In this document: positions 121-21,925 of the stretch, piece by piece
How positions within the stretch are numbered: the first letter of the stretch is position 1
Layout: the number at the start of each line of letters is the position of its first letter
From: Baffinella frigidus
Lineage: Eukaryota > Cryptophyceae > Cryptomonadales > Baffinellaceae
Direction of reading: 5' to 3'
DNA length: 22,041 bases
Assembly: GCA_026770585.1 (NCBI GenBank)
Contig: MU646504.1
Span: 587,494 to 609,534 of the forward strand
Position numbers and translations under genes: made by a program
Notes under the pieces: model-generated
Database searches by the model: none
What the model was told of the DNA's origin: nothing
The model's input: only the letters and a program-made list of their open reading frames with translations

Positions 121-140
121 AACTCTGCGTGTTCCTTTTT

Positions 141-290: not shown

Positions 291-336
291 CATCGCGACA
301 GGCAAAGAGGGACTCTCGGCGGGTGGGAGCGGGCAG

Positions 337-388
337 CATGGAGGCGGTATTGCCGCATGGGGGGGCGCCACCCTCTCCCTTGTTGACG
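337..388 (+). CDS. Exon: POMP repeat fragment
   Basis: Reads HGGGIAAWGGATLSLVD plus one base. The GGGI...G.L.L pattern is the core of a POMP beta-helix repeat. The acceptor is CAG at 334-336 and the donor GTGTCA at 389. The frame is also open back to about 283, so the exon may start earlier, for example after the AG near 300. The phase does not join directly to the exon at 1069, so at least one exon between them is missing from my model. Confidence 0.5.
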
Positions 389-3300
389 GTGTCAGGTTAC
401 GAGCCCTCCCCCGGGATACCAACCAACCAACCCACCAACCACGGGTCACGAGTCCAACATCCTTCGTGCTGCCTCAAACCCTAAACCCTAAACCAGGGTC
501 TTCAGGTCATTTAGGTTCTTTAATCCCGCACCTCCACCGGCGGACGCTTCCAGTGGCCCTGCTTCCCGTAGGATCGTATGATGCCACCCGGTGCAGAGGA
601 CCAGTGTGGTACCGGGAGGTAGACCTGCCTGGAACAGGTATCGTCCTGGTGCCAACTTGCCCGGGTTGGTCAACCGTGGGGGGTAACGCCGCCGTGTCGC
701 GGTTTCGTCAAGTCGAAAATCCCCCGTCAGTACGGCGGTTCACTCAACCGGGCAGGTTGTGTGCCAGGACTGCAACCAAACCGGGTATGGCTGGTACCAT
801 AACCACCTCTGGTTGTTCAACTGTTGGCTGTGAAACTCGCCTAGAGAGAGAGAGAGAGAGAGAGAGAGATGGTGGGGAGGGGCGCGAAGTTGCTCTGTGA
901 ACCGAAGACGCCGGGAAAGGTTTCCTGGCGATGTTGTCAGGGTGCACGGGAACCCTCGCCCCCACACCCTCAACCCTAAACCCCAAACCCTAGACCCTAG
1001 ACCCTAGACCCTAAACCCTAAACCCCAACCCCCAAACCCTAAACCCTAAACCCTACACCCTAAACCAGGGTGCACGGCAACCGTGCGGTGGGGCAAGGCG
1101 GGGGGGTTTTCATGGAGACTACTTGGAGTTCAACAGGAGTTGCATTCACCGCGAGTGACGACGTCGTCATTGAGAGCAACTCCTGTGGTAAACCCTAAAC
1201 CCTTACCCCTTAACCCTGAACCCTGAACCTGAAACCCGAAACCAGAAACCCGAAACCCTGAACCTTAAACCCGAAACTCTAAAGTCTAAACCCTCAACTC
1301 TCAACTCTCAACGGTGAAGGTCCTCGCTCGCAGGGAGCTACGGAGGCGGGGTGGCAACCGCACGCAGCGGGCGGCCGGGCGGAGACTCTATGGAGATGTC
1401 CAACACGCTTGTGCGCGGGAACACGGCTGGCCACAGGCAAGATCCCGGTTTCCGATCTCATGGCTAAAGAAGTGATATTTATTCAGGATGAGGGTTTGCG
1501 AGGAGTTGTTCAGTCTGGTGCACATTGTTTTCCTGGCCGCTCTCGAGGGAAGAAGGCAAAATTTAAGAGGTATCAAGGACATTCACCTGAAAGCCAGAAT
1601 CTAGCCCTGACTGTCTTATATGTGCCGAGTTCGCTCGACAGCGGTACGCGACTGACCCCTTGGTTGCTCCGAAGTGGTTGCTCCGAAGTGGTGCACGAAG
1701 ACGCTTCCGAAGGCGCAGAGAAGCAGAGAAGGTCGTCACGCGCGGTCGTCCAAGAGTCGGACACAGCGTCGCCAGTGTGTTGATGACCCAGCGTCGCCAG
1801 TGTGTTGATGACCCAGCGTCGCCAGTGTGTTGATGACCCAGCGTCGCCAGTGTGTTGATCACGCGAGCGTCTCGAGTCCTCACAGGGCCGTGCTCGCGAG
1901 TCGCAAAACTTCTCGATTCCAGGGTAGTTACCATACTGGCTCTACAGAAGGCGCTTTGTCTCCTAGGATACAGTAGGCGCTTTGTCTCCTAGGACTGATG
2001 AACTTGAAGGCACCAAAGTGAAGAAAGCGCCCCCTGAGTGGGGATGTGACCCAGTGCATGAATGTGAATGGGCAATTGAAACAAGGCAGAAGAGGGGATG
2101 GGAATGTGAGGCAGGGCATAGGTGTGGTCTGCGTGGGTCAATACTCTCGATCTTGGCGTGGCGTCCCCGCAACCATTGGTGCAGAGCGGCCTCGTTCTTT
2201 CGCGACACGTGGCCGTGAGAGAGAGGGAGAGAGGAGAAAGGGAGAGAAAGAGGGGGGCAGGGCAGGGGTTTGGACCGCGGCTCCCTGCACCGCGCTTGGT
2301 GCTCAGCGTGCGGTAACTTCTCTCACGCTGGGGCCGGCGCGCGCAGTGGGGGCGGGATCGCGATGAAGTCGGGCACGCTCCTGCTCTCCAACATGTCGAT
2401 GGATCACAACCGCGCGTCTGCCTCCGGGGGGGCGGTCTACGTCATGGGCGCCACCTTGCAGGTGTGAGCTCCTTGAGGTCATCTGGCTTCTTCAAGCTCC
2501 TATCATAGGTGGACACTGGAACTTATCCTGCAGGAAATTGCTGGTTCCTTTCGGATTGCAGGACAAACGAGCACCGCTCGGACACTGGGCCCGCCCAGGG
2601 TCTTCGCTGGGTCGGCCAGGGTCTTCTCTGGGTCGGCCAAGGTCTTCTCTGGGTCGGCCAGGGTCTTCTCTGGGTCTTGAGTCCTGGGGAGGGGCTAGGA
2701 GCTAAGGACCCCCCTGGAGACGGTATGTGTCCTTATTCGCGAGTGACCCCTGCCGGCAAGCCTTCTCAGCGTGCAAACAGCCAATAGCCCCCTACAGTGG
2801 ACCATATCGACATTGTAACTTGGGCCATTTATTTCGAGGGGTCTGTCGAAAACGACTGGCTGCCCAAAGGAAATGGCTCAAACTACATGCTCAATTTGAT
2901 GCACTTAGGAGGGCTGGTACAGATAGATGGCATGGTCGCTGGGAAGAGGTGCACGAGAAAGACTTCTTGATTCCACACGAGAATGCTAGAGGGGCCTATT
3001 TCAAGCCGATGTGCTTTTAAAAGTGGGCATTTGTGTAGTAACTTTCGTTGATTGGTCGCGTAACTAGCCATATATTGGCAGGCGCGAGGTTGGAACACCC
3101 TCTCATGGTACACATATTTACAACCCCACATGCAAATAGGATCCTGCAGGATTCTCGAGTGGTTGGCGACCAACTGGTCCGGATCCACTTCCTCGTCGAG
3201 ATCATTTACCGGGCCATTTACCGGGCCTCGCCCCATGATCATTGACCGGGCCGGCCTCGCCCCATGGGTGTTTGAATTCTCTTTTCCCTCTAGTCTTATA

Positions 3301-5653
3301 TTTACCTTCCTAGGAAAAGGTGCAAAACGTTTCTACCACCGATCAACATCTTCGCCTGGTTGAGGGTCTACGGTTCAGGGTTCAGGGGTTTGGGTCAAGG
3401 TGAAACGTTCCGATGAATCATGCGTGCTGGCCCGCAGGTCTTAGTCGTCGTTTTTACCACTCTCCTGCCGAAACGAGTGATGCAAAAGCCAACCACCCGC
3501 TTAAGTCGTCGCGTGTGTGTAGGAGGTGGAGTTAAAATCCATCCGAAAAATGCTCGTAGGAGCGGGCGACACGGGGTACAGTAGTGGCACAATGCGTAGG
3601 ATGTGTGGCGGTGACGCTGGTTGTTTGGCAAGAAGTTATGAATGTCTCTCGTCGCGTGTGCAGGTATCCGGCAACTGGACCATGTCCGGCAACTCGGCGC
3701 GGCTCTCTGGAGGCAGTCTCACGGCAGACGGGAGCCAAGTCCTTCTCCAGGGCAATGCCACCGTCTGCTTCAACCGTGCAGGTGCTAGGCCCGCGTCAGG
3801 ACTGATAGGACCGCCTCACCACGGATGGGCCCACCTCAGGACTGATAGGCCCGCCTCAGGACTGATAGGCCTGCCTGCAGTACACGGATGGTATTGCCAC
3901 GGAGGATTGGTGGTCGGCACTTCGAAAGACCTGCCAGCGTTTGGCAACGGCCCCAGGCCCAAGTGCGTGCCCGCGATGATGATCATCGGTCGCGTCTGTG
4001 CAACCACCGAGGGACACCTCTAGAGTTCTTGCCAATCACGTGGCTTATGAATGTGGTCGAGGGCAGTGTACCCCCGTTACAGCAACTACTTTCGTGCAAA
4101 CAAGGGAGGCAACCCTTTCCTGACACATGAACCAGCGAAACACAGAGGGTTTGTTGGTGCAATGTCACCAGTGAGCCTCATAACCTCTCTCTCGCTCTCT
4201 CTCTCTCTCGCTCGCTCGCTCGCTCGCTCTCTCTCTCTCTATGCATCAGGAACCGACGGGGGGGGGCTGGAGGTAAACGGGGGGAGTCTGGTGGCGCGGG
4301 GCAACATCCTGATCCAAGACAACCTCGCCACATTCGATGCGGGAGGCATCAAAGTCACTCTCGGCGCCAAAGTGGTCCTTTCAGAGGTGCCCCCCCCAGC
4401 CAATGTTTGGCCTTTGCATGTGGCATGGATACGTGTAGAGTCGAGGACGCAACTGCGCATACTGTCCCACGACCGGACAGTATGTGTGGGTGTCTGTTGC
4501 ATTTGGAGTTGCGAAACGTTGGGAGTTGCGAAACGTTGGGAGTTGCGAAACGTTGCTCTTCTGTTGGTGTGCGCCTCGTGCACCTCTCGCGCGAGAGGAC
4601 TCTCTCCTTCTCGCTCTCTCCTTCTCGCTCTCCTGCTCGCGCATTCTCGCTCTCTCTTTCTCGCTCCCGCGCGCTTGCTCTCGAGCTCTCGAGCTCTCGC
4701 TCGCGCGCACGCTCGTTCTCTCTCTTCTTCTCCAGTCAATTGAGACGCACAGCGAACCAGCTTTGAATAATCGTTTCTCTGCATGGAGCAGGGGGTGGAG
4801 GTTTCTCGCAACTCTGCACGCTACTACGGTGGCGGTACCGCCCTTGCCCCATCCTCTCAAAGGACTACAGAGGGCCGGAATTGGATCCTTTTCTTCGGAT
4901 TGTATCGGGAATGGTCACGTGATATCCGGGCAACAGTCTCCCCTGTAGCCGTTTGAGCAGAATGCTCTATGGAGGAAGCAACTGGGCAGCGGCAAGAGAC
5001 CGGATCGTTCATTTGCGAACAAAAATAGGCCTACCCCCATGACAAAGATCAGGTTTCTTCATGTTAGGAAGAATCAAATAAGGCTACTCACCCTGTATTC
5101 GAAGGATTTCCCGATGCAGACTTGACCGAGCCAACCCCCTGTCCCCAGACAGAGGCTCCCCCGTGCGTCGGTTGACGCATGGTCCCTTTTCCAGTAGCAC
5201 ACCCCGCCCCGTTGAGTCAACACCCTGGCAGGCACGAACACCCTGGCAGGCACGAACACCCTGGCAGGCACGAACAAACGCTGCCCGGGTTAGTCAACCG
5301 TTGCACGCACGTGCTTGCATGGGACCCTCCGCAGAGAGAGAGCGAGAGAGCGAGAGAGAGAGAGATGTACTGACACCCGGGCAAATGCATTCCATCTGCC
5401 CTCGGTGGGCAGATGCCAGCCATCTTACCCGCAGGGGACCCTCTGCAGGATAAGTTGCAGTGTCCGCCTTGGGTGGGAGCTCGAACAACATAGAGGACCT
5501 GAAGGCTTGCATCTCACCCTCCGCAGGCATCATGGTCAACGGCGCGACCCTCGCAGCGAGCGGGGTCCGCATTATTGGGAACTCCGCAGGCTCTGCGGGC
5601 GGGGTGGGCGCCTTCTTGTTCCTCAAAGAGAGCAGGTCACGTCCCTGCACCCG

Positions 5654-5699
<46 letters not shown>

Positions 5700-14438: not shown

Positions 14439-14494
<56 letters not shown>

Positions 14495-15998
14495 ACCTCC
14501 CACCAACCTACCGCTGCCTTGTCGACTCGGTACCCCACCATCCCACGCAAACGACTTGAGGCAACATTTTTGAACCGGGATTGGAATATTTTCTTCGATT
14601 TGTATTGGAATTGGTCACGGTACGCCCGGATATCTGGGCACGACGGTGGCTCTTAGCTTTCTTGGCGGTTGTTTTTCTTCTTCTGAATTACCCTTGATGC
14701 GAGAAATGCGCGCCTACTCACCCTCCGAGGAGGGCCGAATCGCCGTTTGGAGGTCCCGTGATTTGCACCGGAGGTTCTGATTTCTTCTGGAGGCGGTTGG
14801 AATCCGTGCTCCGCGTCCTCTGCCACGGTCGACCTCGGTCTCCCGCCCCTCAGAGGAGACGCCAAGGTCTGTCTCTCTCTGCATCACCAAACCTTCCATC
14901 ATACCACAAAAACTCGGTATATCACCAAACCTTCCATTATACGATGAAGACTTGTTATATGACGAAAACCCTCTCGTTATGACAAAAACTTGCTTTTGCC
15001 TTTCCAGGTCGAAGTGGAGTTCCGGTGAAGTGTTAGACCCCAATTGAATCATGTTTGAATTGGACATTAACCTTCCGAATCTTGCGGGCAGGGGGGGGCG
15101 CTGCGTGAAGTGTTAGACCCTAATTGAACAATTCATTAGACCCTAATTGAACGATTCACCGTGACCAGGTTGAGGAGACATACTCGACGTTTGTGTCCTA
15201 CCGAATTTTCTCAGAAAAGATGCACGCCCGGATTCTCCACCAGGTGCTCCTCGTGCCCCCCCCAACTTGAGGCCACGCCAGGTCGTACATGAGAATTTCG
15301 GTTACAAGTCTCGTTGTTAATTTGATACTGCGCGGACGTGAAAAGGACGATTTTGTGGAGGTACGTGGACGAGGAGCTGCGTGCCACCAGGTCCCACATA
15401 CTCTTTTAGTACTACAAAACGAAACGTTGCGTTCTGAACTTTGCACCCATGACCTTGCGTGGTTCCTGCGCCCTGCTGTGTTTTCTGTGACCACCCGCAG
15501 GCGTTGTGGGCATACCAGGAATGTCAAGGTCACCGGCTGTCTTCTGCCGGTGGCCTTGACATTCACATCTGCGCATACCAGGAATGTCAAGGTCACCGGC
15601 TGTCTTCTGCCGGTGACCTTGACATTCACATCTGCGCATACCAGGAATGGCTCCGGCTGTCTTCTGCACATCTGCGTTTCCTTGACACACCTCACTTGCC
15701 TGCACTCTCTCAGTGTCCTGGCGTGCTGCGGGTTTGGGCACGGAGCATACAGATACAAGGGCGCTGGGCTTCGAAAGGCGCCAGGACGCTCTGGTCCTTG
15801 CGGTGCTCACGCACGTGTTTTGAGTTGAGTGCACACCCTGGGACAGGTGTTGAACAACTCAGTCACGCCCACTCTCTCTTACACCCACACTCACTCTATA
15901 TCACACATACACGCTCACTCTCTCTCCCCCCCCCCCTCTCTATCTCTCTCTCAGGTGCTGAACAAAACAGTGACGCCCTCTCTCACACACACTCTCTA

Positions 15999-16056
<58 letters not shown>

Positions 16057-18711
16057 GCAGGTTCTGAACAACACAGTGACGCCCGCGGGGCACCGTGTGA
16101 TCAACTTCCTAGATGTCACGCGCCTCGTCGCGGGCGAAGACTGGGAAAAGGTGACGCGCCCCCGCTGCCTCCTCCCCAGCGAGACAGACAGAGACAGACA
16201 GAGACAGAGACAGAGACAGAGACAGAGGCAGAGACAGAGACAGAGACAGAGACAGAGACAGAGACAGAGACAGAGACAGAAACAGACAGAGACAGACAGA
16301 TGTACCGACACTGGGGAAGATGCGTGCAATCAGTCGTGGTGAGTGGGGCCAGGCAGACCAGGCAACTTGCCTACGGGGGAGCCCCCCCCCCCCGCGAATT
16401 CAAACGTCCCCGTTGTCCCGTCCCGACATCACGTTTCAGAAGGTCGTACGTTGATCGTAAGTAATGAGGACCTGGTCCCAGGACTGAATAAAGAGGTTCC
16501 CAAGCAAAGCACACCCCACACGGTGGACAACGAACCTTTCGTCAAGAGTCAACTTTCCCAGAGATAATTAACTTCAAGGATTTTCTCAGGCAAATTGGTC
16601 ACGTAACACCCCGAAATCCGGGGTCAACGAAACCTTCGTAGCCCACCGAGTGGTCCCCACATCCGGACACCACTACCAGATCGCATCACCCATCTTCAGC
16701 CAAATCGAGGCTCCCACAGTCGCTGCCACATCGCGGCGCGTCAACATGTGCGTGTGCTGCTTAAGTTGACGTGTGTCCTTGAGTTGACGCCCTGCGTTAA
16801 GTTGAAGCACGTCCCTCAACCCTGATCCGAAATATCCTGTTCGTTCTGAACTAACGCTTCTCCCTGTACTGCCCCTGATCTTTGTACGGTCGTGCTCTGC
16901 GGCGAATGAACGTTGCTACTTCCCCCTTGGGTTGGCAGGGGTTTTCGCAAGGGCTGATGAATTCGATGGTCGCGATCCCCTTGATTTCTGCGGGCGTCAT
17001 CAACCCCATGGTCAAACTCCAAGGTTCTCTCTCTCCCTCTCCCTCTCTCTGCCTCCCTCTCGCTCTCTCTCCCTATCTCTCTCTCTCTCTCTCTCTCTCT
17101 CGCTCTCACTCTCTCCCTCCATCCCTCCCTCCCTCCCTATCGCTCTCTTTCCCTCTCTCTCTCTCTCTCTTTCTCTTTCTCTCTCTCGCTCTCCCTCCCT
17201 CCCTCTCGCTCGCTCGCTCGCTCGCTCGCTCGCTCGCTCTCTCTGACGTGCCCTTTGCAGGAACGGACGAGGACAGGGTTGACAATGTTGCCAAGGAGCT
17301 TGTGGTTTCTCCCCTAAATCTTAAACCCTCAACCCTAAACCCCAAACTCTAAACCCTAAATCCTCGACCCTAAACCCTAAACATTAAACCCTAAACCCTT
17401 AACCCCAAACCCTAAACCCCAAAGCTTAAACCCCAAACCCCAACCCCTAAACCTTAAACCCTAAACCCTGAATCCTGAACCCTGAACCCTACAGATCATG
17501 CACGCCCTCATGGACCCCCAATCCAAGCGCAAAAACGTTCAGGTAATAATTACCCCCTCCACTCGAGTGGAGAAAACTTTAAAATGGAATGCGGAGTATT
17601 TCAAATGCTGGGTTGTAAACATTTGGTCGCGGGCGGGCTTGGTCACGTTACTAGCGGATATCCGGCAGCAACGTGGCCAAACGCGATTATGTGTGACAAG
17701 TACTACACAGCGGTCCACTTGTAAAGGAGCCCCAGTTGAAAAATACTCACATTTATAGCCTCGAGTGGCTGTCCAAACTTCTGCCTCATTCCTCTTGCTG
17801 GAAAAGCGCTGCTCGCCGAGACAAAAGTCGAGAGTGTGACGTCTTGAAGCACAAGTGGAACCTCTGTTATTTTTAGTAACAGTAGAAAATTCGTAATGGG
17901 CGACTTTAATCATCCCGGACATTCCCGGAAGGGGAACCTGGAAGCCATCTATCTATCCGGTCCTGATAGGCGCGTCCCTCATCGTGTCCGGCATTTGTAC
18001 TGACGCGTCCCCCATCGTGTCCGTCAGCTGAACCTGGAAGCCATCTATCCGATCCTGATCGGCAAACCGCGCGACGCGAGCGACAACTTGTATCCAGATA
18101 CCGGCAACTTCTACTCCGACGGTCCCGCCCCCAACCCCCTCCACGCGATGATAGATGGTGTATCAAATCGACCTGTTTTCAAAGTCAACCTACCCACGCA
18201 TCCGTCAACTTGGGCCAAAATTTGGCCAAAATACTTTTAGTAGTGCAAAAATAATAAGAAGTCGGATCAGATTTGGTACACAGCTTATCGTCGCGTGCCC
18301 CCCTCCTACACACAAAGACATGACCAGCACGTACCCGCGCGCGTCCCTAAACTGCAATTATCAACCCGCAACCCTAAACCCTAAAACCTAAACCCTAAGC
18401 CCGAAACCCGAAACCCGAAACCCGAAATCCGAAACCCTAAACCCTAAACCCTAAACCCAAAACCCCAAACCCTAAACAATTCACTACAAACCCCAAACCC
18501 CAAACCCCAAACCCCAAACCCCAAACCCCAAACCCCAAACTCCAAACCCCAAACCATGAACTCTAAATCATCAACCCTAAACGGTGACGGAACGTGCTCA
18601 CAAGCAGGGTCGTGCCAAGCAGTCGCAAGCGGGTTGCGGGTGCGCTAAAACCATCCCAGTGATAAAGTGCAGGCGGGCCAGTTGGTCGTCAATAAAGAAC
18701 TCTCTCACACA

Positions 18712-18749
<38 letters not shown>

Positions 18750-19397
18750 CTCTCTCTCTCTGCAGGGTCATCGCAAGCAGTCGTGAGCGGGATTCTGGTG
18801 GAGAAAGTCTCGCCGCCGATCAACTCTTCCGTCAAAAACTTCCTGCGCAGGAGAGTCACGCCACGCTCCCTGGCATCTTGTCTAGAGAGTGAGAGAGAGA
18901 GAGCGAGCGAGAGAGAGAGAGAGAGAGAGAGAGATTTACTGACACTCGAGGAGATGCATTATGTCTGTCTTCTGTGCCGCCAGCCAACGTACCCTGTTAT
19001 CGTATCTAATTTGTCCTGGTCCAGGCACAAGTTCTGTGACTAACGTTAGTCGCCGTGCTGGTGCAAAATTGCCCGGTTACTTGGTCAGTCGTGAAGAGTT
19101 GAGGCGGTGTCACGGAGTCCCCCGTTCGACAGTTGACTAACCCTTGCAGGGTCTGTTCGCAGTTGGTACCAGGAAGGACGGTTCCTAATCTAGGCAGGCG
19201 TCGTGCCATGTCTGAGAGCCTGGCTGGATCAGTCAACTGCGGTGCGCTAGGATGCCACTGTTTCTGCTGAGGTGCTCTCACGAAGGGTGCGAGCTGATCG
19301 CCCCACCTGAACAACACCGGTGTTGTTTCGGCAACCGTTGCCGAACCTCCCATCGAGGCACTGCACGTGTACCTCCCCACACATCCGGGCCGTGCGT

Positions 19398-19442
<45 letters not shown>

Positions 19443-21925
19443 CTTTATTGACAACCAACTGGTCCGGATCCTCTTTGTCGCCGAGGTTGTTTTAGCGGGC
19501 CGGCCTCGTGCCATGGGAGTTTGAATTGCCTTTTCCAGGTCGCCTTGTATCTACCTTCCTAGAGGATGCGGCATGAAGACGCTTTCTGGGGTGGGCAAGT
19601 TGTTCCGCACGGAAGGGGCTCGCAACCTGCTGTGCTCAGATTAAATCTATCCCAGTGGTCTTTCCTGTCCTCAGCGGCGGGAACCCCGGGCACCTCAACT
19701 CCTGCACCCTACACCCTACACCTTCCTCCCTACACCTTACACCCCACACCCTACACCCTACACCCTACACCCTAACCCCTACACCCTACACCCTGCACCC
19801 TGCACTCTACACCCTACACCCTTGACCCTACATCCTAAACGCAAGAGCCTCAACAGGCAGGGGATGCACGTGAGCAGGGAGAGTGCAGCTTTGACGACGA
19901 CGGTCGCCTCATCGGTACCGTCCCGACAGGGCGATGCCAAGGTTCACTCGGGAAGATTCATTGTAGCGTGAGAGCGTGAGATGCTCAAGTGCTTCCGGCA
20001 CTTCTCTCGCTTCCTCTTTCTCTCTTTATGTCCCTCCCGCTTTCTCTCTATCTCGCTATCTCTCTATCTCTCTCTGCCAAGGTTGCCACCATAAGCAATT
20101 CGAATCGCCTAGATCCGCCTGCGAAAATCTGGAATCGCCAGAGATACATTTAGAGCAGGGAGTTCAGTACAAAAGGGCGCGTAAAATGCTATTTTGGCGA
20201 GCCGAGATTCACTCAAGCAGAGGTAGAACACTGAGAGAGAGAGAGAGTTCTTTATTGACGACCAACTGGTCCGGCTCTACTCTTTCGCCGAGAATATTTC
20301 AGCGGGCCGGCCTCGTGCCATGGGTATTTGAATCCCCTTTTCCCGGTGGCCTTACATCTACCTTCCTAGGTAGAACACTGAACGTGCCTCAGACTGTGCC
20401 GCAATCCAGCCCCCGAAATGTCCGACTATCGGGTTTCGGCTCTCAACGGTTGCATTGACACGGAACATAGAGTGGAGTGATGCGGACTGCGGGACACAGT
20501 CGACTCTCTCTCTCTCCCTCTCTCCCTCGCTGTCCGCTCCCTGTCCGCACTCGGTCCGCACGCGCTGACAGGTCCTTGGCGGGCCCACAGATATCGAGTC
20601 TGCTGGGGCTGGACTGCGCGCGCCTGTGGGAACACGGTCAACCCTAAACCATAAACCATACACCATAAAACATACACCCTGAACCTTACATCCTGAACCC
20701 TAAACCCTAAACCCTAAACCCGAAACCATAAACCCTAAACCATAAAGCAGGGGACCTTCCGGAAGAAGACCTCTCGGAAGAGTCGTACCTCTGGCGGATG
20801 GTCCGTGCCTCCAACTCTAAACCCTAAACGCTAGACCATAAACCCTGAAACCCAACCCTAAACCCTAAACCCTAAACCCTAAACCCTAGACCCTAGACCC
20901 TAGACCCGAAACCCGAAACCCGAAACCCGAAACCCGAAACCCGAAACCCGAAACCCGAAACCCTAAACCCGAAACCCGAAACCCTAAAACCAACCCCCTA
21001 ATCCTGCGTTTGCGGGTCTCGAAACCTGTGTGTAGGATAGGCGTGAAAGATTTGTGGTCTGCAAAGCACATATGGTGAGGCTTGCATGCACGGAGCGTTG
21101 GCCTCCAGGAACGGAGGTTGTCCGTGCTTCAACGCGGTGCCTGCTCGATCTTGATCGACGCCTGGCAGTCTCCTTGCTGGTAGGTCACTTGCGCGCCGCT
21201 GCCAGTCCTCCTCCGCGATTCCGTTTGTGTCTCCTAAAACTTCTACTCGACGTGACATGTGTTAATTCACTCCGGTTATGCCTCAATGGGATTTGTCTGC
21301 AGACTGACGTGGTGTCGTGCTCGGGTGGCAATCAGGTGCAACGGGATCCGCCTCTCCCGGCGATGGACCTGAATCAGCTCAGGAGACTCAAGGCCGAAAT
21401 GCGCCACCTGGTGGGCTACCCCTGTAGGCTGTTTATGTCTGCGAATTTGCAATTCTGGGTCTCTCTCTCTCACGAATACCTCGCTCTATCTCACATGATT
21501 GGCAAAGGTAGACAGGCTCGGAAGCTAGAGCCTTGCCCGCGCGCTGAAGGCTGATGTGCCTCCTCGTCGAGACCACCTGCCTCCTCTTCCTCCTCTTGTT
21601 TCCTTGCTCTCGTCCTCTCTCTCGCTCGCTCTCGCTCTCTCTCTCTCTTCCGCTCGCGCGCTTGCTCGCGCTCTCTCTCTCGCGCGCGCGCTCGCGCTCT
21701 GCTCTCGTCCACCAACGTCTGGCACCAGGCCAAGTGCTCCTCTGTCCCGTCCCGGCATTTGATACCCCCATCAAGTGTCGGCCGTGGTCAGTGAGCGGTC
21801 AATCCAACCCAGGAGCAACCGTGCCCGGCCCCGCCCTTTTTCGTCTGACGGGGGCTCATAACCTGGATCAGGTGCCGAAGATTCACGAGGTTGTCGACCG
21901 GGTGCACGCGGACAAGCTGCAGTGA
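337..21925 (+). CDS. Multi-exon receptor-like protein: POMP-repeat ectodomain, Notch-like Cys modules, TM, protein kinase, TIR-like domain (5' partial)
   Basis: Predicted single-pass membrane receptor kinase with a TIR-like C-terminal half. My join is 337-388, (unresolved exon), 1069-1187, 1334-1436, 2347-2461, 3664-3781, 4250-4386, 4792-4873, 5527-5635, 5842-5914, 6057-9179, 9627-9698, 9833-9885, 10106-10148, 10485-10553, 11589-11639, 11740-11878, 13076-13245, 13808-13891, 14305-14397, 15169-15243, 16061-16150, 16939-17023, 17261-17301, 17495-17542, 18028-18157, 18766-18888, 19150-19161, 19889-19902, 20591-20636, 20751-20800, 21336-21410, 21872-21925. From 1069 onward all junction phases agree and no internal stop appears. 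All acceptors are AG; donors are GT except GC at 1437, 4874, 9699 and 9886. The N-terminus and signal peptide lie left of the window. Domain order is seen in the sequence; receptor function is inferred. Weakest points are 4873, 11878 and the micro-exons 19150 and 19889. Confidence 0.78.
842..870. repeat. (GA)n microsatellite
   Basis: An uninterrupted AG dinucleotide run in an intron. Unlike the tracts near 5362 or 19440, the sequence to its right does not match families A, B or C. Confidence 0.9.
961..1066 (+). repeat. Telomere-like CCCTAAA block abutting a splice acceptor
   Basis: Degenerate tandem CCCTAAA/CCCTAGA/CCCCAAA units run into the acceptor TAAACCAG of the exon at 1069. The C-rich strand is the coding strand, as in most other blocks of the window. 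Confidence 0.85.
1069..1187 (+). CDS. Exon: POMP repeat
   Basis: After one base that completes a codon it reads VHGNRAVGQGGGVFMETT and on to DDVVIESNSC, then one base of a split glycine codon. GNxAxxxGGGVF is a textbook POMP repeat. The donor GTAAACCCTAAACC at 1188 is itself the first unit of a telomere-like repeat. Confidence 0.75.
1188..1333 (+). repeat. Intron made largely of telomere-like repeats
   Basis: A 146-bp intron starting GTAAACCCTAAACCC and continuing as degenerate CCCTAAA, CCCTGAA, CCCGAAA and CTCTCAA units to about 1312, then about 20 bp of unique sequence ending in CTCGCAG. Confidence 0.8.
1334..1436 (+). CDS. Exon: POMP repeat
   Basis: Reads (G)SYGGGVATARSG, then DSMEMSNTLVRGNTAGH and two bases of a split serine codon. 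The GNTAGH turn joins in frame to SGGGIAM of the next exon, completing a canonical GNTAxxGGGI motif across the intron. The donor is GC (GCAAGA at 1437). Confidence 0.75.
1437..2346. other. Intron with short tandem duplications
   Basis: No gene seen. It contains a doubled GGTTGCTCCGAAGT (about 1662-1690), the 25-bp minisatellite at 1764-1860, a doubled AGGCGCTTTGTCTCCTAGGA at 1949 and 1976, and a purine-rich stretch at 2216-2255 before the acceptor GCGCGCAG. Confidence 0.6.
1764..1860. repeat. 25-bp minisatellite, four copies
   Basis: The unit CAGCGTCGCCAGTGTGTTGA plus TGACC starts at 1764, 1789, 1814 and 1839 and is nearly identical between copies. Confidence 0.9.
2347..2461 (+). CDS. Exon: POMP repeat
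   Basis: Encodes GGGIAMKSGTLLLSNMSMDH followed by NRASASGGAVYVMGATLQ: two GGxx strands flanking an N-R-A turn, the spacing of POMP repeats. The acceptor is GCGCAG and the donor GTGTGA at 2462, in phase 0. Confidence 0.8.
2597..2678. repeat. 21-bp minisatellite, four copies
   Basis: The unit AGGGTCTTCTCTGGGTCGGCC starts at 2597, 2618, 2639 and 2660. It is open in one frame, but that frame lacks any link to the POMP exons. Confidence 0.88.
3155..3318 (-). mobile_element. SINE-like family A copy A1, tail lost
   Basis: Shares GACCAACTGGTCCGGATC, GGGCCGGCCTCG.CCCATGGG, TTTGAATT.CCTTTTCC and CTACCTTCCTAG-like blocks, in the same order, with copies at 19440 and 20248. It has an internal expansion of the GGGCC.TTTACC segment and lacks the GA tract seen beside the other two. 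Confidence 0.7.
3363..3400 (-). repeat. Short telomere-like stretch in reversed orientation
   Basis: GGTTCAGGGTTCAGGGGTTT and neighbours are G-rich on the + strand. Together with one TTTAGGGTTTA near 12726 this is nearly the only exception to the C-rich orientation of all other blocks. Confidence 0.5.
3524..3648 (+). mobile_element. SINE-like family C copy C1 with target-site duplication
   Basis: Very similar to C2 (13714-13802) and to the reverse complement of C3 (11314-11446); shared blocks include GACACGGGGTACA and CAATGCGTAG. It ends TTATGAATGTCTCTC. It is flanked by an exact 12-bp repeat TCGTCGCGTGTG at 3506-3517 and 3649-3660. The right copy runs straight into CAG, the acceptor of the exon at 3664, and the left copy is followed by TAGG. 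Confidence 0.78.
3664..3781 (+). CDS. Exon: POMP repeat
   Basis: Reads VSGNWTMSGNSARLSGGSLT, then ADGSQVLLQGNATVCFNRA plus one base. It has two SGN turns and a GGS strand start. The donor is GTGCTA at 3782. The acceptor lies immediately after the family-C element. Confidence 0.8.
3782..4249. other. Intron with 20-bp duplications and a CT/CGCT tail
   Basis: Starts with about three degenerate copies of CTCAGGACTGATAGGCCCGC (3795-3875), then unremarkable DNA, and ends with (CT)n and (CGCT)n at 4180-4240 just before the acceptor ATGCATCAG. Confidence 0.6.
4180..4240 (+). repeat. (CT)n/(CGCT)n tract acting as polypyrimidine tract
   Basis: A pyrimidine dinucleotide and tetranucleotide run ending 9 bp before the acceptor AG at 4248-4249. 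Confidence 0.85.
4250..4386 (+). CDS. Exon: POMP repeat
   Basis: Completes a split glycine and reads TDGGGLEVNGGSLVARGNI, then DNLATFDAGGIKVTLGAKVV and LSE. It shows GGGL and AGGI strand starts with N-L-A between. The donor is GTGCCC at 4387, phase 0. Confidence 0.82.
4387..4791. other. Intron with 17-bp repeat and C/T-G rich microsatellites
   Basis: Contains three tandem copies of GGAGTTGCGAAACGTTG (4505-4555), then a CT-rich tract with CGCG interruptions (about 4580-4730). Its translation is simple serine/leucine/arginine and is not considered real. Confidence 0.7.
4792..4873 (+). CDS. Exon: POMP repeat
   Basis: Reads GVEVSRNSARYYGGGTALAP and SSQ: an R-N-S-A turn followed by YYGGGTALA, a clear POMP repeat. 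The 3' end is uncertain: a GC donor at 4874 (SSQRTTE plus one base) gives the phase needed by the next exon. A GA donor at 4863 was considered but does not keep phase. Confidence 0.65.
4866..4945. repeat. Dispersed repeat family D
   Basis: The string from CCGGAATTGGAT through TTTTCTTCGGATTGTAT to ATGGTCACGTGATATCCGGG matches 14572-14645 along its length. The ATCCGGGCA palindrome with TGGTCACG also recurs near 16590, 17640 and in the array at 12302. Confidence 0.6.
5219..5275. repeat. 18-bp minisatellite, three copies
   Basis: AACACCCTGGCAGGCACG is repeated three times in tandem without change. Confidence 0.88.
5335..5434 (-). mobile_element. SINE-like family B copy B2 with target-site duplication
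   Basis: A (GA)n tract then GATGTACTGACACCCGGG and ATGCATT, matching 18934 onward. About 100 bp long and flanked by GGGACCCTCCGCAG (5321-5334) and GGGACCCTCTGCAG (5435-5448), one mismatch in 14. Read on the minus strand the element ends in a (CT)n tail. Confidence 0.7.
5527..5635 (+). CDS. Exon: POMP repeat
   Basis: Reads IMVNGATLAASGVRIIGNSA, then GSAGGVGAFLFLKES and two bases of an arginine codon. GNSAGSAGGVGAF is a POMP turn plus strand. The acceptor is CCGCAG at 5521-5526 and the donor GTCACG at 5636. Confidence 0.8.
5636..5841 (+). repeat. Intron of (CT)n plus CCCTGGA telomere-variant repeats
   Basis: Holds a (CT)n tract at 5657-5698, then about nine tandem heptamers CCCTGGA (5757-5820), then GAAGCCT units ending in the acceptor GAAGCAG. 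CCCTGGA has the 7-bp period of CCCTAAA, so it looks like a locally homogenised variant of the telomere repeat. Confidence 0.85.
5842..5914 (+). CDS. Exon: POMP repeat
   Basis: After one base it reads VTLSGGVIVRGNTAVSQGGG and LMLL. GNTAVSQGGGL is an ideal POMP motif. It contains a 10-G run (5893-5902) coding for Gly-Gly-Gly. The donor is GTCATC at 5915, phase 0. Confidence 0.85.
6057..9179 (+). CDS. Long exon: POMP repeats, Notch-like Cys modules, Cys-rich region, TM helix, kinase N-lobe
   Basis: A 1,041-codon uninterrupted frame. The acceptor CTCCAG (6051-6056) is preferred because GSTLDARNCSVVDNHA then joins the previous exon in phase 0. Order: about ten POMP repeats (GGGLYAG, GGGFLES, GGGLRM, GGGIAAG and similar); two LNR-like cysteine modules; further POMP repeats (YGGGVFYEGG, AGGAMHVGC); a sandwich-like segment; a GCC2/GCC3-like cysteine region; a membrane-proximal domain; one TM helix; a basic stop-transfer (RGHWRKASRR); and the kinase glycine-loop strand and VAIK-type lysine (VSWAVKLV). 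It ends at QRE with donor GTGTCG; the open frame running on to 9221 is intron read-through. Much longer than every other exon here. Confidence 0.92.
6942..7034 (+). other. Lin-12/Notch repeat-like cysteine module 1
   Basis: CATQCGAGKIGDGTCDPAC then C.WDGGDC: six cysteines with the spacing and the DGxCD and WDGGDC motifs typical of LNR calcium-binding modules. Confidence 0.85.
7071..7169 (+). other. Lin-12/Notch repeat-like cysteine module 2, degenerate
   Basis: CSRQDCAVFSDTSTNACVGE, then C, then CAWGGDKC. Six cysteines are kept, but the DGxCD calcium motif is lost and WDGGDC has become WGGDKC, so calcium binding is doubtful. Confidence 0.7.
8150..8470 (+). other. GCC2/GCC3-like cysteine-rich region
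   Basis: Contains CNTCPVGATCSGG, RCPPGYEILL, CRQCVPGTYCVGG and KCPANSHSQAGATETAGC. The CxxCxPGTYC and CPxxSxSxxGAT signatures are those of ephrin-receptor/GCC2-GCC3 type repeats common in protist surface proteins. It lies between the beta-helix and the membrane, as expected for a stalk. Confidence 0.8.
8484..8815 (+). other. Membrane-proximal alpha/beta domain
   Basis: Begins VMVALSLSLPLPLSAFEKTG and later reads DVDLEIAGADTGSAEAIAKR. Alternating strands and helices of about 100 residues next to a TM helix resemble a SEA-like or similar algal surface-protein domain. Family assignment is from memory and uncertain. The leucine-rich start is not a second TM helix because a polar helix follows at once. 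Confidence 0.45.
8838..8906 (+). other. Transmembrane helix
   Basis: VVAGSVASVIAALLVASAVW and GVA are hydrophobic for 23 residues, preceded by acidic and polar residues and followed by RGHWRKASRR. The positive side faces the kinase, which fits a type I topology with the POMP region outside. Confidence 0.9.
9180..9626. other. Intron within kinase N-lobe
   Basis: Contains a (GA)n tract at about 9385-9419 and a small tandem CGCTGACCACTTTT motif (about 9544-9611, three loose copies) that gives a pyrimidine-rich run before the acceptor GATCGCAG. Confidence 0.7.
9627..9698 (+). CDS. Exon: kinase alphaC-beta4 region
   Basis: Reads VALLDKINSPNVVKLMESGL and SSDQ. It joins QRE of the preceding exon to give LQREVALLDKINSPNVV, the alphaC helix with its conserved glutamate and the HPNIV-like beta4 entry. 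The donor is GC (GCAGAA at 9699). Confidence 0.92.
9699..9832 (+). repeat. Intron composed entirely of telomere-like repeats
   Basis: 134 bp from GCAGAACCCTAAACCC to CCTGAAGCAG. Apart from the terminal splice bases it is degenerate CCCTAAA/CCCTGAA/GCCTGAA throughout. Confidence 0.9.
9833..9885 (+). CDS. Exon: kinase hinge
   Basis: AVFWLVMEKLEGPSLKE plus two bases. VFWLVMEKLEG is beta5 and the hinge; LVMEK is the usual position of the gatekeeper and hinge residues. The GC donor (GCCTCG at 9886) is supported because it keeps phase with the exon at 10106. Confidence 0.88.
9886..10105 (+). repeat. Intron composed almost entirely of telomere-like repeats
   Basis: 220 bp starting GCCTCGCCCTAAACTC and ending CGCAAAAGCAG. 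It includes about seven tandem ACCATAA heptamers (9960-10010), another homogenised 7-bp variant, and CTCCAAACCCTAAA units. Confidence 0.9.
10106..10148 (+). CDS. Exon: kinase alphaD-alphaE link
   Basis: One base completes an arginine, then LGTSGPVSQIEAIR. Joined to its neighbours it gives PSLKERLGTSGPVSQIEAIR followed by IMLEVCAGV, the normal alphaD to alphaE stretch of a kinase C-lobe. The donor is GTTTGA at 10149. Confidence 0.82.
10149..10484. other. Intron with a small hairpin
   Basis: A lower-GC stretch. GCAACGTTT (10353-10361) and AAACGTTGC (10369-10377) form a 9-bp stem with a 7-base loop, next to further GAAACG/CGTTTC and CGCGAAA motifs. No repeat family recognised. Confidence 0.6.
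10485..10553 (+). CDS. Exon: kinase catalytic loop
   Basis: IMLEVCAGVKAIHELGVVHR then DIK. HRDIK carries the catalytic aspartate. The donor GTCGCT follows directly, and the next exon supplies PAN. Confidence 0.95.
11314..11446 (-). mobile_element. SINE-like family C copy C3, inverted, with duplicated splice acceptor
   Basis: Reverse complement matches C1 and C2: GACACGGGGTACAGTAGTGG, CAATGCGTAGCATGTG and the AATCTCTCTC tail end. The 12-mer GCAGCCGGCGAA occurs at about 11302-11313 just left of the element and again at about 11585-11596, where it is the acceptor and first bases of the kinase exon. Confidence 0.75.
11513..11580 (-). mobile_element. Partial family-C copy next to C3
   Basis: TTTCCGGATGGATTGTAACT and CATCCCACGTGGCTGG repeat the right end of C3 (TTTCCGGATGGGTTCTAACT and CCTCCCACGTGGCT). 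This suggests either a second insertion or a local duplication. Confidence 0.6.
11589..11639 (+). CDS. Exon: kinase PAN and metal-binding strand
   Basis: PANIVRAAGGVHKLIDL. It continues HRDIK into HRDIKPANIV, with the conserved asparagine, and then KLIDL, the strand before the metal-binding aspartate. The donor is GTCAACCCTA at 11640. Confidence 0.95.
11640..11739 (+). repeat. Minimal intron wholly made of telomere-like repeats
   Basis: Exactly 100 bp from GTCAACCCTACACC to CCGAAACCCTAAAGCAG. There is no unique sequence. It splits the kinase DLG motif between L and G. Confidence 0.93.
11740..11878 (+). CDS. Exon: kinase activation loop
   Basis: GAAQVAAHADLLATSHVTLD then TDT. KLIDLGAA is a DLG variant of DFG. 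Two donors are possible. GTGAGT at 11809 gives a loop of normal length but breaks phase unless a tiny exon is missing. GTAAGT at 11879 keeps phase with 13076 and adds about 23 residues (VSRFPPLLFAANSAGKRQVL and more). The second is used here, with caution. Confidence 0.75.
11879..13075. other. Intron with poly-G, 41-bp palindromic array and tetranucleotide repeat
   Basis: Contains a 14-G run (12004-12017), repeated CACACTGAAAGTTGAC (12089-12140), the 41-bp array, one TTTAGGGTTTA near 12726, GAGT repeats (12809-12841) and two copies of GACAGAGGGCGCGTGAGTGA (12877-12922) followed by an inverted CCGCCCTCTGTCTG. No gene seen. Confidence 0.7.
12302..12466. repeat. 41-bp tandem array with a perfect 18-bp palindrome
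   Basis: Four copies of TGCCCGGATGTCCGGGCAGG followed by TCACGTGAACATTCCCCCTA. TGCCCGGA/TCCGGGCA is self-complementary around AT/GT, and CACGTG is a second palindrome. The core resembles dispersed family D. Confidence 0.92.
13076..13245 (+). CDS. Exon: kinase APE motif and C-lobe
   Basis: LPAFGAYSAPENFIPLAPVT, then FAADIWSLVMTLFELVTGAL and PYNDTPDAVSASAIIA. APE, the D-W-S of alphaF and the LVTGALPY turn are classic protein kinase features. The donor is GTCAGT at 13246. Confidence 0.93.
13246..13807. other. Intron ending in a family-C insertion
   Basis: The first 400 bp hold only a small GCGGTGCGGCGGTGCG duplication and GCACGTCCTGAGGCACGTCC. The right end is element C2. Confidence 0.55.
13714..13802 (+). 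mobile_element. SINE-like family C copy C2, 5'-truncated
   Basis: CCGACACGGGGTACATCAGT to TTATGAATGTCTCTCTC matches C1 with few changes but lacks its first 45 bp or so, as 5'-truncated retroposons do. The (CT) tail directly forms the polypyrimidine tract of the acceptor at 13806. TGCAGGGGG occurs on both sides (13706 and 13803), so the likely target duplication includes the acceptor. Confidence 0.75.
13808..13891 (+). CDS. Exon: kinase C-lobe
   Basis: GDLDADLRDVRDVAPEHIRS then GLSSTFSQ. It links SAIIA to VLALGLRKR and fits the alphaG to alphaH segment. The donor is GTATCA at 13892. Confidence 0.85.
13892..14304. repeat. Intron with two decayed copies of the preceding exon's 3' end
   Basis: The exon tail (13841-13893) recurs at 13928-13980 with about five changes, including a frame-breaking TGA, and more weakly at 14024-14074. 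Both extra copies continue into GAGGTCCCA.TCCTGAACCC and degenerate CCCTAAA units. The rest is telomere-like and C-rich to about 14230. Confidence 0.8.
14305..14397 (+). CDS. Exon: kinase C-terminal helix
   Basis: VLALGLRKRQEERTQTADDL then SSDLHRCLVDS. LRKRQEERTQTADDL corresponds to the conserved arginine helix that ends the kinase fold. The donor is GTATCC at 14398. Confidence 0.92.
14408..14511 (-). mobile_element. (GA)n-rich insertion flanked by a duplicated exon end and donor
   Basis: GCTGCCTTGTCGACTCGGTA occurs at 14381-14400 (exon end plus GTA donor) and again at 14513-14532; with flanking bases about 26 bp are repeated with two mismatches. Between lie an (AG)n run and about 25 unique bases. 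This is what a target-site duplication around a tail-only retroposon fragment would look like. Confidence 0.65.
14572..14645. repeat. Dispersed repeat family D
   Basis: CCGGGATTGGAATATTTTCT through GATTTGTATTGGAATTGGTC to CCCGGATATCTGGGCA aligns with 4873-4945 over its full length. Confidence 0.65.
15169..15243 (+). CDS. Exon: TIR-like domain, strand A
   Basis: VEETYSTFVSYRIFSEKMHA then RILHQ. FVSYR is TIR box 1 (F-x-SYR type) and is followed by an amphipathic helix. Phase 0 at both ends; donor GTGCTC at 15244. Confidence 0.88.
15511..15660. repeat. 63-bp tandem repeat carrying an 18-bp-stem hairpin
   Basis: Units start at 15511, 15574 and 15637. In unit 2 AATGTCAAGGTCACCGGC (15583-15600) pairs perfectly with 15609-15626 across an 8-base loop. 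Unit 1 has one mismatch. Unit 3 has lost most of both arms but kept the loop. Confidence 0.92.
15847..16060 (+). repeat. Triplicated exon start separated by (CT)n tracts
   Basis: CAG|GTGTTGAACAACTCAGTC at 15844, CAG|GTGCTGAACAAAACAGTG at 15952 and CAG|GTTCTGAACAACACAGTG at 16058 are three versions of the acceptor plus first eight codons. Each of the last two is preceded by a long (CT)n tract. Only the third leads into the TIR frame. Confidence 0.85.
16061..16150 (+). CDS. Exon: TIR-like domain, strand B and box 2 side
   Basis: VLNNTVTPAGHRVINFLDVT then RLVAGEDWEK. V-x-FLD is TIR strand B and L-V-x-G-E-D-W corresponds to the L-x-x-G-x-x-W loop before box 2. The donor is GTGACG at 16151. Confidence 0.9.
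16151..16938. other. Intron with GACAGA microsatellite
   Basis: A (GACAGA)n run at about 16183-16292 flows into a family-B-like GATGTACCGACACTGGGGAA (16289-16308). After that come a CCCCC run, a family-D-like TTGGTCACGTAACACCCCGA (16594-16613) and repeated GTTGACG. No gene seen. Confidence 0.65.
16183..16320 (-). mobile_element. Probable family-B fragment with expanded GACAGA tail
   Basis: The tail-to-body junction CAGATGTACCGACACTGGGG and ATGCGTGCAAT mirrors B2 and B3, with GACAGA replacing GAGAGA in the tail. Confidence 0.5.
16939..17023 (+). CDS. Exon: TIR-like domain, box 2 helix and strand
   Basis: GFSQGLMNSMVAIPLISAGV then INPMVKLQ plus one base. It joins GEDWEK to give GEDWEKGFSQGLMNS, then VAIPLIS, the helix followed by the V-x-x-L-S strand of TIR domains. 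The donor is GTTCTC at 17024. Confidence 0.92.
17024..17260 (+). repeat. Intron almost wholly (CT)n/(CCCT)n/(CGCT)n
   Basis: A 237-bp intron. About 220 bp are pyrimidine dinucleotide and tetranucleotide repeats starting directly at the donor GTTCTCTCTC. The acceptor is CCCTTTGCAG. Confidence 0.92.
17261..17301 (+). CDS. Exon: TIR-like domain, putative catalytic glutamate
   Basis: Completes a glycine and reads TDEDRVDNVAKEL. The position matches the W/x-x-x-x-E-L helix that holds the glutamate used by NAD-cleaving TIR domains. Here the tryptophan or cysteine is replaced but the E-L pair is kept. The donor is GTGGTT at 17302. Confidence 0.85.
17302..17494 (+). repeat. Intron composed almost entirely of telomere-like repeats
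   Basis: 193 bp. After GTGGTTTCTC it is CCCTAAA-type repeat to the acceptor, which is itself a repeat variant (AACCCTACAG). Confidence 0.92.
17495..17542 (+). CDS. Exon: TIR-like domain helix
   Basis: IMHALMDPQSKRKNVQ continues the KEL helix (AKELIMHALM). The basic stretch precedes the next beta strand. The donor is GTAATA at 17543. Confidence 0.85.
17543..18027. other. Intron with an upstream echo of the next exon
   Basis: Contains a family-D-like stretch at 17630-17680. AACCTGGAAGCCATCTAT occurs at 17935 and again at 18031 (inside the next exon), and CGCGTCCC.CATCGTGTCCG occurs at 17971 and 18004. These make an interleaved duplication of the acceptor region. Confidence 0.7.
18028..18157 (+). 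CDS. Exon: TIR-like domain, last core strand
   Basis: LNLEAIYPILIGKPRDASDN, then LYPDTGNFYSDGPAPNPLHA and MID plus one base. IYPILIG is the strand D/E type hydrophobic core (I-P-V-x-x-G in other TIRs). The donor is GTGTAT at 18158. Confidence 0.85.
18368..18590 (+). repeat. Telomere-like block with homogenised CCCCAAA and CCCGAAA runs
   Basis: Heptamer period kept throughout, with local runs of one variant (CCCGAAA near 18402-18426, CCCCAAA near 18488-18550). Confidence 0.9.
18640..18762 (+). mobile_element. SINE-like family A copy A4, sense orientation with (CT)n tail
   Basis: GGCCAGTTGGTCGTCAATAA AGAAC followed by (CT)n is the reverse complement of the tail junction of A2 and A3. It is flanked by CAGGGTCGTGCCAAGCAGTC (18605) and CAGGGTCATCGCAAGCAGTC (18763). 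The right one is the acceptor and start of the next exon. Confidence 0.75.
18766..18888 (+). CDS. Exon: end of TIR-like domain and following helix
   Basis: SSQAVVSGILVEKVSPPINS, then SVKNFLRRRVTPRSLASCLE plus one base. An amphipathic segment that follows the TIR core. The donor is GTGAGA at 18889, which merges into the GA tract. Confidence 0.82.
18889..19149 (-). mobile_element. Intron carrying SINE-like family B copy B3
   Basis: The (GA)n tract (to 18934) and GATTTACTGACACTCGAGGA with ATGCATT match B2. The exon end CCACGCTCCCTGGCATC (18861) has a weak echo CCAACGTACCCTGTTATC at 18984, a possible decayed target duplication. The rest is ordinary sequence to the acceptor CCCTTGCAG. Confidence 0.6.
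19150..19161 (+). CDS. Candidate 12-nt micro-exon
   Basis: GG completes an arginine after CLE, then SVR plus one base before GTTGGT, giving CLERSVR. Proposed because phase fits and because an ERSV motif is what I remember (unverified) after such algal TIR-like domains. Without transcript data it is tentative. Confidence 0.4.
19404..19562 (-). mobile_element. SINE-like family A copy A2
   Basis: (GA)n then TTCTTTATTGACAACCAACT GGTCCGG to CTACCTTCCTAG. Roughly 80% identical by eye to A3 over about 120 bp. Possible decayed target duplication: GTGCGTCATGGAG (19392) and ATGCGGCATGAAG (19566). Confidence 0.78.
19700..19840 (+). repeat. CCCTACA heptamer block (telomere variant)
   Basis: At least twelve heptamers of CCCTACA with a few CCCTGCA and CCCTAAC, same period and orientation as the CCCTAAA blocks. 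Confidence 0.9.
19889..19902 (+). CDS. Candidate 14-nt micro-exon
   Basis: CT completes a threonine, then LTTT, donor GTCGCC at 19903. It bridges SVR to ISSLLGLDC in phase. An alternative exon 19861-19941 (GMHVSRESAALTTTVASSVP and more, acceptor AGGCAG, donor GTTCAC) is also phase-compatible with 20591 but not with 19161. Confidence 0.35.
19903..20590. other. Intron with family-A insertion
   Basis: The left part is ordinary apart from a CT stretch at 20010-20075. A3 follows, then a CT-rich segment at 20500-20530 before the acceptor GGCCCACAG. Confidence 0.6.
20235..20367 (-). mobile_element. SINE-like family A copy A3 with exact 14-bp target-site duplication
   Basis: A (GA)n tract, TTCTTTATTGACGACCAACT GGTCCGG, GGGCCGGCCTCGTGCCATGG, then CTACCTTCCT. 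Flanked on both sides by AGGTAGAACACTGA (20221-20234 and 20368-20381), identical. The clearest evidence of mobility in the window. Read on the minus strand it is about 133 bp with a (CT)n tail. Confidence 0.9.
20591..20636 (+). CDS. Exon: C-terminal helical tail
   Basis: ISSLLGLDCARLWEH plus one base. It joins the next exon to give LWEHGDLPEEDLSEESYLWR. Donor GTCAACCCTA at 20637, the same repeat-derived donor as at 11640. Confidence 0.82.
20637..20750 (+). repeat. Intron wholly made of telomere-like repeats
   Basis: 114 bp from GTCAACCCTAAACC to ACCATAAAGCAG, all CCCTAAA, ACCATAA, CCCTGAA or similar heptamers. Confidence 0.92.
20751..20800 (+). CDS. Exon: C-terminal tail
   Basis: Completes a glycine and reads DLPEEDLSEESYLWRM. 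The donor is GTCCGT at 20801, phase 0. Acidic and helical; function unknown. Confidence 0.85.
20801..21335 (+). repeat. Intron with telomere-like block then unique sequence
   Basis: 20813-20995 is CCCTAAA, CCCTAGA and about nine CCCGAAA heptamers. 21000-21335 is ordinary DNA in which I recognise nothing. An alternative acceptor CTGCAG at 21302 would add TDVVSCSGGNQ in frame to the next exon. Confidence 0.85.
21336..21410 (+). CDS. Exon: C-terminal helix
   Basis: VQRDPPLPAMDLNQLRRLKA then EMRHL. The second half is a strongly amphipathic, charged helix. The donor is GTGGGC at 21411, phase 0. Confidence 0.82.
21411..21871. other. Last intron with CT/CGCG tract
   Basis: Contains a CT-rich tract with CGCG insertions (21600-21710), otherwise nothing recognised. 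The acceptor is GGATCAG at 21865-21871. Confidence 0.7.
21872..21925 (+). CDS. Terminal exon with stop codon
   Basis: VPKIHEVVDRVHADKLQ then TGA at 21923-21925. It extends the RLKAEMRHL helix. Alternative: GCAGTG at 21919 could be a GC donor like GCAGAA at 9699, which also leads into CCCTAAA repeats. In that case the gene would continue past the window. Confidence 0.75.
   Translation: MPKIHEVVDRVHADKLQ

Follow-up and report, generated by a model that had tools for sequence, protein, structure and literature searches.

Innate immunity classically starts from TIR signalling or from receptor kinases, two elements that are usually linked by adaptors. In the animal TLR-MyD88-IRAK pathway, the TIR domain of the receptor is coupled to a Ser/Thr kinase in trans through adaptors, and SARM1 is a cytosolic protein that combines a TIR domain with ARM and SAM domains. 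In the 2018 eLife paper by Richter et al. on the choanoflagellate "Kinase TLRs", these proteins are described as having a leucine-rich repeat (LRR) ectodomain followed by a transmembrane (TM) helix, a protein kinase and a TIR domain, are called unique to choanoflagellates, and are proposed to form a streamlined pathway that bypasses kinase recruitment (PMC6040629). In the passages of PMC11747288 that concern them, lancelet LRR-TIR-kinase proteins are described as RIPK2 homologues; these also have TIR and kinase in one protein but in another domain order. Here, we analyze one plus-strand gene in an intron-rich stretch of 22,041 nt from contig MU646504.1 of Baffinella frigidus (the window, used for this whole stretch). 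We consider it probable that this gene encodes a single-pass receptor, with a beta-helix, an LNR repeat and a Cys-rich stalk outside and a Ser/Thr kinase fused to a SARM1-like TIR domain inside, and that it signals by the mechanism proposed below. Compared by described architecture, the protein is like the Kinase TLRs in having ectodomain, TM helix, kinase and TIR in that order in one protein, but differs from them in having a beta-helix/LNR/Cys-rich instead of an LRR ectodomain (PMC6040629, main text). No LRR is among the Pfam matches of the window, which list beta-helix and LNR, and we therefore do not class the protein as a Kinase TLR. In contrast to TLR-MyD88-IRAK, the kinase is present in cis and is placed between the TM helix and the TIR domain.

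The gene model comprises 32 exons (337-21925) that join in frame to one open reading frame of 1833 residues plus a stop codon. Exon edges were picked with splice signals and, in places, relatives as a guide; all 31 introns have an AG acceptor, and the donor is GT in 28 and GC in three. The 5' end of the gene appears truncated by the window, and the true N-terminus probably lies to the left of position 337. The original prediction had proposed one gene with the order ectodomain, TM helix, kinase and TIR, and this order is borne out by the joined frame, in which ectodomain, TM helix and kinase N-lobe lie in a single exon. This exon, exon 10, lies within the longest open frame of the window (6039-9221, uninterrupted) and contains the rest of the beta-helix, the LNR repeat, the Cys-rich stalk, the TM helix, a juxtamembrane segment and the kinase N-lobe, as based on the open frame, Pfam, an alignment to the relative P0121 and an AlphaFold model. 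The features of the gene are:

337-388, 1137-1187, 1334-1436, 2347-2461 and 3664-3781, plus strand: exons 1-5, which with exons 6-9 encode the first part of the right-handed beta-helix
4250-4386, 4792-4834, 5527-5635 and 5842-5914, plus strand: exons 6-9, first part of the beta-helix, continued
6057-9179, plus strand: exon 10, 1041 codons, rest of the beta-helix to kinase N-lobe
6057-6926, plus strand: beta-helix repeats, exon 10 residues 1-290
6936-7037, plus strand: LNR (Notch/Lin-12) repeat, residues 300-333 of the open frame
7722-8105, plus strand: tentative Ig/macroglobulin-like beta domain, exon 10 residues 556-683
8124-8471, plus strand: Cys-rich TNFR/ephrin-receptor-like stalk, with invariant cysteine columns in a five-row alignment
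8490-8828, plus strand: tentative SEA-like membrane-proximal alpha/beta domain, from structure comparison of the model
8853-8918, plus strand: single TM helix, hydropathy 2.38, AlphaFold helix 933-954
8991-14397, plus strand: Ser/Thr-type protein kinase, from LRVKYQ at the end of exon 10 to exon 20
15169-15243, 16061-16150, 16939-17023, 17261-17304, 17495-17542 and 18028-18157, plus strand: exons 21-26, assigned to the TIR domain
17296-17298, plus strand: GAG codon of E1650 (DNVAKEL), which pairs with the E of SARM1 DWVHKE in hhalign and mafft alignments
18766-18854, 19861-19914, 20591-20636, 20751-20800, 21336-21410 and 21872-21925, plus strand: exons 27-32, C-terminal tail

Relatives of the encoded protein were collected with three queries. 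First, a kinase-TIR query of 481 residues that lacked exons 13 and 17 gave 520 proteins at E≤0.001 among 8000 scored; in the first 16 of the best 120 (P0001-P0016; 45-58% identity), the kinase C-lobe continues into the TIR domain in one frame. Second, region 1470-1813 of an earlier join gave five relatives among 5385 candidates, i.e., Baffinella frigidus P0121, Cryptomonas curvata P0122, Cryptomonas paramaecium P0123 (taxid 2898), P0124 and P0125. Third, residues 1860-2137 of P0125 gave 40 relatives among 2744 candidates, including P0125 and P0123; PF00069 is matched by 39 of these 40, the exception being P0163, which has EF-hands. The relatives include MMETSP transcriptome entries (P0122, P0123 and P0148-P0151), and the Cryptomonas entries carry kinase and TIR in a single reading frame. 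The domain order recurs in P0121 (hypothetical protein T484DRAFT_1784367), which has a beta-helix/PMP part, a Cys-rich part, a TM helix, kinase, TIR and tail, is 40% identical over 1168 columns and has no LNR match in Pfam. The conserved C-terminal tail ends in LVPKIHEVVDRVHADKLQ followed by the stop codon and is alignable to P0121 up to residue 1810 of that protein, as seen with an earlier join in which the ends of exons 27 and 28 were slightly different; among the tblastn matches listed with relatives as queries, parts of exons 27, 30, 31 and 32 were matched. For conservation, we aligned 60 sequences (the window protein, P0001-P0016 and P0121-P0163), of which 44 are longer than 1000 residues.

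These relatives decide against a model in which two adjoining genes, one for a receptor kinase and one for a TIR protein, have been wrongly joined. Exons 20 and 21 are separated by an intron of 771 bases that contains a microsatellite, and at this locus the join from 14397 to 15169 is predicted from the DNA, as a two-gene model would allow. However, the 16 shorter proteins and 43 of the 44 long ones (window model counted), transcriptome entries included, have kinase and TIR in one frame, and at the family level we therefore reject two separate genes, which we regard as exceedingly improbable at this locus.

Exons 21-26 encode the series YSTFVSYR...INFLDVTRLVAGEDWEKGF...VAIPLIS...DNVAKEL...IYPILIG, and the assignment of 15169-18157 as a putative TIR domain rests on family-level evidence. 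TIR_2 (PF13676) was matched at E≤1 by 14 of 14 member segments in one set and by 16 of 18 in a wider set, and was the sole Pfam family common to more than one member segment in both; the other families were single-member chance matches (five in the 14-member and three in the 18-member set). Among segments scanned singly, P0162 and P0163 passed the cut-off of 28 bits (28.2 and 30.0 bits), while the remaining six of eight failed, and as whole proteins these two scored below it (24.3 and 24.0 bits). A PDB search with a family profile (A5) gave 17 distinct sequences at E≤10, all of them forms of SARM1, with a best E of 0.11; the profile A4 likewise gave SARM1 only (best E 0.13). In local hhalign alignments, the family profile matched the SARM1 TIR domain at 96% and the two KE motifs were paired, whereas no shuffled SARM1 sequence (100 used) and no decoy (102 used), i.e., random segments of other proteins from the kinase-TIR query matches, exceeded 50% in either run (highest control 2.1% in one run and 4.1% in the other). 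The family resembles the SARM1 TIR domain, an NAD+ hydrolase, in its conserved motif order, its VFISYR-type motif and the Glu of the KE motif, but its loop ahead of strand B is longer and, in many members, the KE helix is preceded by an insert. We take the E of SARM1 DWVHKE to be the catalytic Glu642. This position is Glu in 42 of the 44 long proteins and in 57 of all 60; among the former, P0160 has Val and P0163 is unaligned there, with E in other alignments. The other TIR columns are similarly conserved in the 44 long proteins (Arg 44, BB-loop Asp 41, Trp 43).

Among smaller matches, PADLOC gave ThsB (0.033) and PDC-M04A (0.037) for one member each of 14, and in NCBIfam, TIR-like matches of 18 members were to FxsC (four members, best 0.0085), ThcB4 (two) and a retron TIR (one), next to the non-TIR families BldC and AMP_phos (one each). 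P0163, a 1489-residue EF-hand protein without a kinase, has a more canonical TIR domain (the segment with 30.0 bits). We considered and rejected that the TIR domain came from a virus or a bacterium, as relatives are encoded by none of 33 IMG/VR and none of 15 GTDB contig stretches with a pattern match, and the TIR domain of P0163 had no match among plasmids; these tests are weak and sensitive to close relatives only.

The kinase domain matches PF00069 at 4.3e-30 (105.4 bits), confirming the predicted kinase with HRD and APE motifs. K1286, alpha-C E1308, H1383-D1385, N1390, D1403 and the APE E1450 are in place, and the DFG motif reads DLG; the kinase is likely, but not certainly, catalytically active. 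Across the 44 long proteins, in which the kinase-less P0163 accounts for the gap in these columns, the Lys is present in 43, the alpha-C Glu in 41 (Gln in two), the HRD Asp in 35 (Asn in eight) and the DFG Asp in 34 (Gly in eight, Asn in one). Eight proteins (P0152, P0153, P0154, P0156, P0157, P0159, P0160 and P0161) are pseudokinases by sequence, with HRD Asp changed to Asn and DFG Asp to Gly in all eight; in a quick FastTree run of 44 sequences, in which many supports were low, they group as a single branch (support 1.0). The TIR Glu is retained in seven of the eight, which fits the TIR domain as an output of its own. The best scorers after the TIR family in the first query were kinases with a PARP domain. 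P0017 and P0018 combine a family-like kinase (33% and 31% identical to that of the window, with the lead-ins FPHELRKQY and FPRELSREY vs LPQELRVKY in the window) with a C-terminal PARP catalytic domain (3.8e-21 and 5.9e-17), and no ectodomain was seen in either. PARP is itself an NAD+-using enzyme.

Several observations nevertheless weigh against a kinase-TIR receptor with two active outputs. The TIR domain of the window is below the Pfam cut-off (16.6 bits in the kinase-to-tail join and 19.9 to 20.4 bits as a segment vs 28), as are the five full-length relatives P0121-P0125 (13.2 to 15.3 bits), so that the predicted TIR match stands at the family level (TIR_2 and hhalign to SARM1) and fails for the window segment by itself. 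The hmmsearch match to SARM1 is nonsignificant alone and effectively a single match; the narrower profile A2 found no TIR chain in the PDB, just an armadillo repeat artefact, and searches of the PDB with the window TIR or P0163 alone found no TIR chain either. The AlphaFold model of the relative P0014 (16-row alignment) is poor over the TIR domain, with pLDDT values of 28-42 at residues 81-160 and 47-71 at residues 161-230, and has no TIR sheet. A conserved Glu is no proof of NADase activity. Finally, the glycine loop is degenerate (VLASGAHRIV in the window vs VLGSGSFGVV in P0122), which makes the activity of the window kinase uncertain. The low TIR score would also fit a decayed TIR remnant in what is merely a receptor kinase; however, this part is 44-66% identical to 13 relatives, the Glu is invariant in all 14 rows of A2, and the TIR exons are open, in frame and have intact splice sites, making decay very improbable.

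Receptor kinases act through clustering, and enzymatic TIR domains require assembly and a Glu for NAD+ cleavage. We suggest that the ectodomain binds a surface ligand, which could be prey, a bacterium, a partner cell or a particle, and that bound receptors would cluster, activating both inner domains. The clustered kinase would phosphorylate itself and targets, while the clustered TIR domains would assemble and cleave NAD+ through the conserved Glu. A single molecule could thereby generate both a phosphorylation output and an NAD+-derived output. Alternatively, the TIR domain could be a nonenzymatic assembly or adaptor module that recruits other TIR proteins, with the kinase as the sole enzyme. 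The TIR domains of animal TLRs and MyD88 are scaffolds of this kind, and the BB-loop region is altered in the pseudokinase members displayed, indicating that constraint on the TIR domain is not uniform. By contrast, the near-invariant Glu at the SARM1 catalytic position, SARM1, an NADase, as the sole PDB protein matched by A4 and A5, and the PARP termini of the kinase cousins P0017 and P0018 all speak against a pure scaffold, which we regard as unlikely. The NAD+-linked output of the proposed mechanism gains likelihood from the pseudokinase branch and the PARP cousins, which fall short of proving it.

On the outside, Pfam matched the longest open frame to Beta_helix (3.9e-8) and the Notch LNR repeat (PF00066; 7.2e-7, 30.0 bits vs a cut-off of 21.2), the latter in agreement with the predicted LNR-like module. 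With exons 1-9 added, the whole-query E value of Beta_helix (PF13229) improved to 6.9e-18 over three stretches, the best of which covers residues 18-187 of the joined ectodomain, within exons 1-9. In 1-6056, the motif GG[GA]-hydrophobic occurs 10 times on the plus strand, eight of these in model exons, and twice on the minus strand, a count that is partly circular because exons were picked with such motifs in view. In the AlphaFold model, the ectodomain contains a parallel beta-helix of GG-rich repeats, as shared by chlamydial Pmp and pertactin-type passengers; unlike these, the window has no autotransporter domain among its Pfam matches. VIA-align ranked pertactin and similar chains first for this model, and Foldseek returned nothing at E < 0.001, its first rows being complement, mastigoneme and cadherin chains. 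Two labels of the original prediction could not be kept. The PMP repeat profile behind "POMP repeats" (PF02415) is not matched by the window at E≤1, while P0121 does match it, and we therefore class the ectodomain as beta-helix only. The "GCC2/GCC3" profile (PF07699, Ephrin_rec_like) is likewise not matched by the window at E≤1, while P0122 and P0125 match it; the only Pfam match of the stalk itself is DUF7631, at 21.0 bits vs a cut-off of 27.

The ectodomains of the relatives are diverse and include beta-helix, beta-helix with Notch (P0162, which in Pfam is Beta_helix, Notch and kinase), CUB, ephrin-like, LamG with TNFR, CHASE (P0147) and Kelch (P0148-P0151); in the FastTree run, beta-helix ectodomains were spread over several branches. 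The protein could serve adhesion, mating, particle capture or mechanosensing instead of defence, with the LNR and SEA-like parts as a Notch-like force or cleavage switch. The LNR match above the cut-off, the tentative SEA-like fold near the membrane and the CUB, Kelch, CHASE and LamG ectodomains point in this direction, and such a role fits the same inner mechanism; we consider it somewhat unlikely.

The introns contain further features of note. The GC donors of the model lie at 1436-1437, 9698-9699 and 9885-9886 (3/31 introns). Introns 2, 11, 12, 15, 24 and 29 (1188-1333, 9699-9832, 9886-10105, 11640-11739, 17305-17494 and 20637-20750) consist largely of CCCTAAA-type telomere repeats, which, allowing ≤1 mismatch, make up 73-96% of these six of 31 introns of 100-220 bases each, compared with 1% of exons and 3-4% of the shuffled window. 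The C-rich strand is the coding strand in all six, and these introns suggest a way in which introns could be gained or expanded. Exons 19, 20, 22 and 26 each have a partial copy in an adjoining intron (13926-13974, 14512-14529, 15958-15978 and 17934-17953); these copies are 18-49 bases long and 89.8-100% identical, and the exon 19 copy translates with a stop. Two dispersed repeats of ~137 bases, one at 3519-3655, 11307-11443 and 13714-13801 and the other at 19426-19562, 20233-20369 and 3247-3314, lie inside introns and look like short mobile elements; their longest copies are 86-87% identical, and some are inverted or partial. Intron 17 contains an 82-base tandem unit with 98.8% identity (12302-12465).

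Searches of open-licence papers found no description of a TIR receptor kinase from a cryptophyte; none of six terms occurs in the main text of PMC9756366 (Arctic algae), and a term search gave no Guillardia, cryptophyte or cryptomonad in that of PMC6040629. The family is large and apparently undescribed, and is probably a cryptophyte one, as all members with a named organism are cryptophytes. The novelty is smaller than originally hoped: it holds for the non-LRR ectodomains and the cryptophyte-linked family, and not for the order TM-kinase-TIR, which was already published for choanoflagellates with LRR ectodomains (PMC6040629, main text). More tentatively, these proteins may represent a cryptophyte receptor-kinase family with NAD+-consuming outputs (a SARM1-like TIR domain in the membrane receptors, and a PARP domain in related kinases for which no ectodomain was seen), swapped ectodomains and one dead-kinase TIR-effector branch, forming an immune or prey-sensing system of its own that perhaps evolved independently of animals and choanoflagellates. 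As far as the main text of PMC6040629 goes, the published uniqueness concerns the LRR version; the family shares the inner order of the Kinase TLRs, probably in another supergroup, and the wider TM-kinase-TIR order would no longer belong to choanoflagellates alone. Single-chain receptors of unicellular algae, in which kinase and TIR go together with diverse ectodomains and a conserved Glu of putative NADase function, would offer a ready system for asking whether NAD+ signalling driven by receptors evolved more than once and what these algae sense at their surface.
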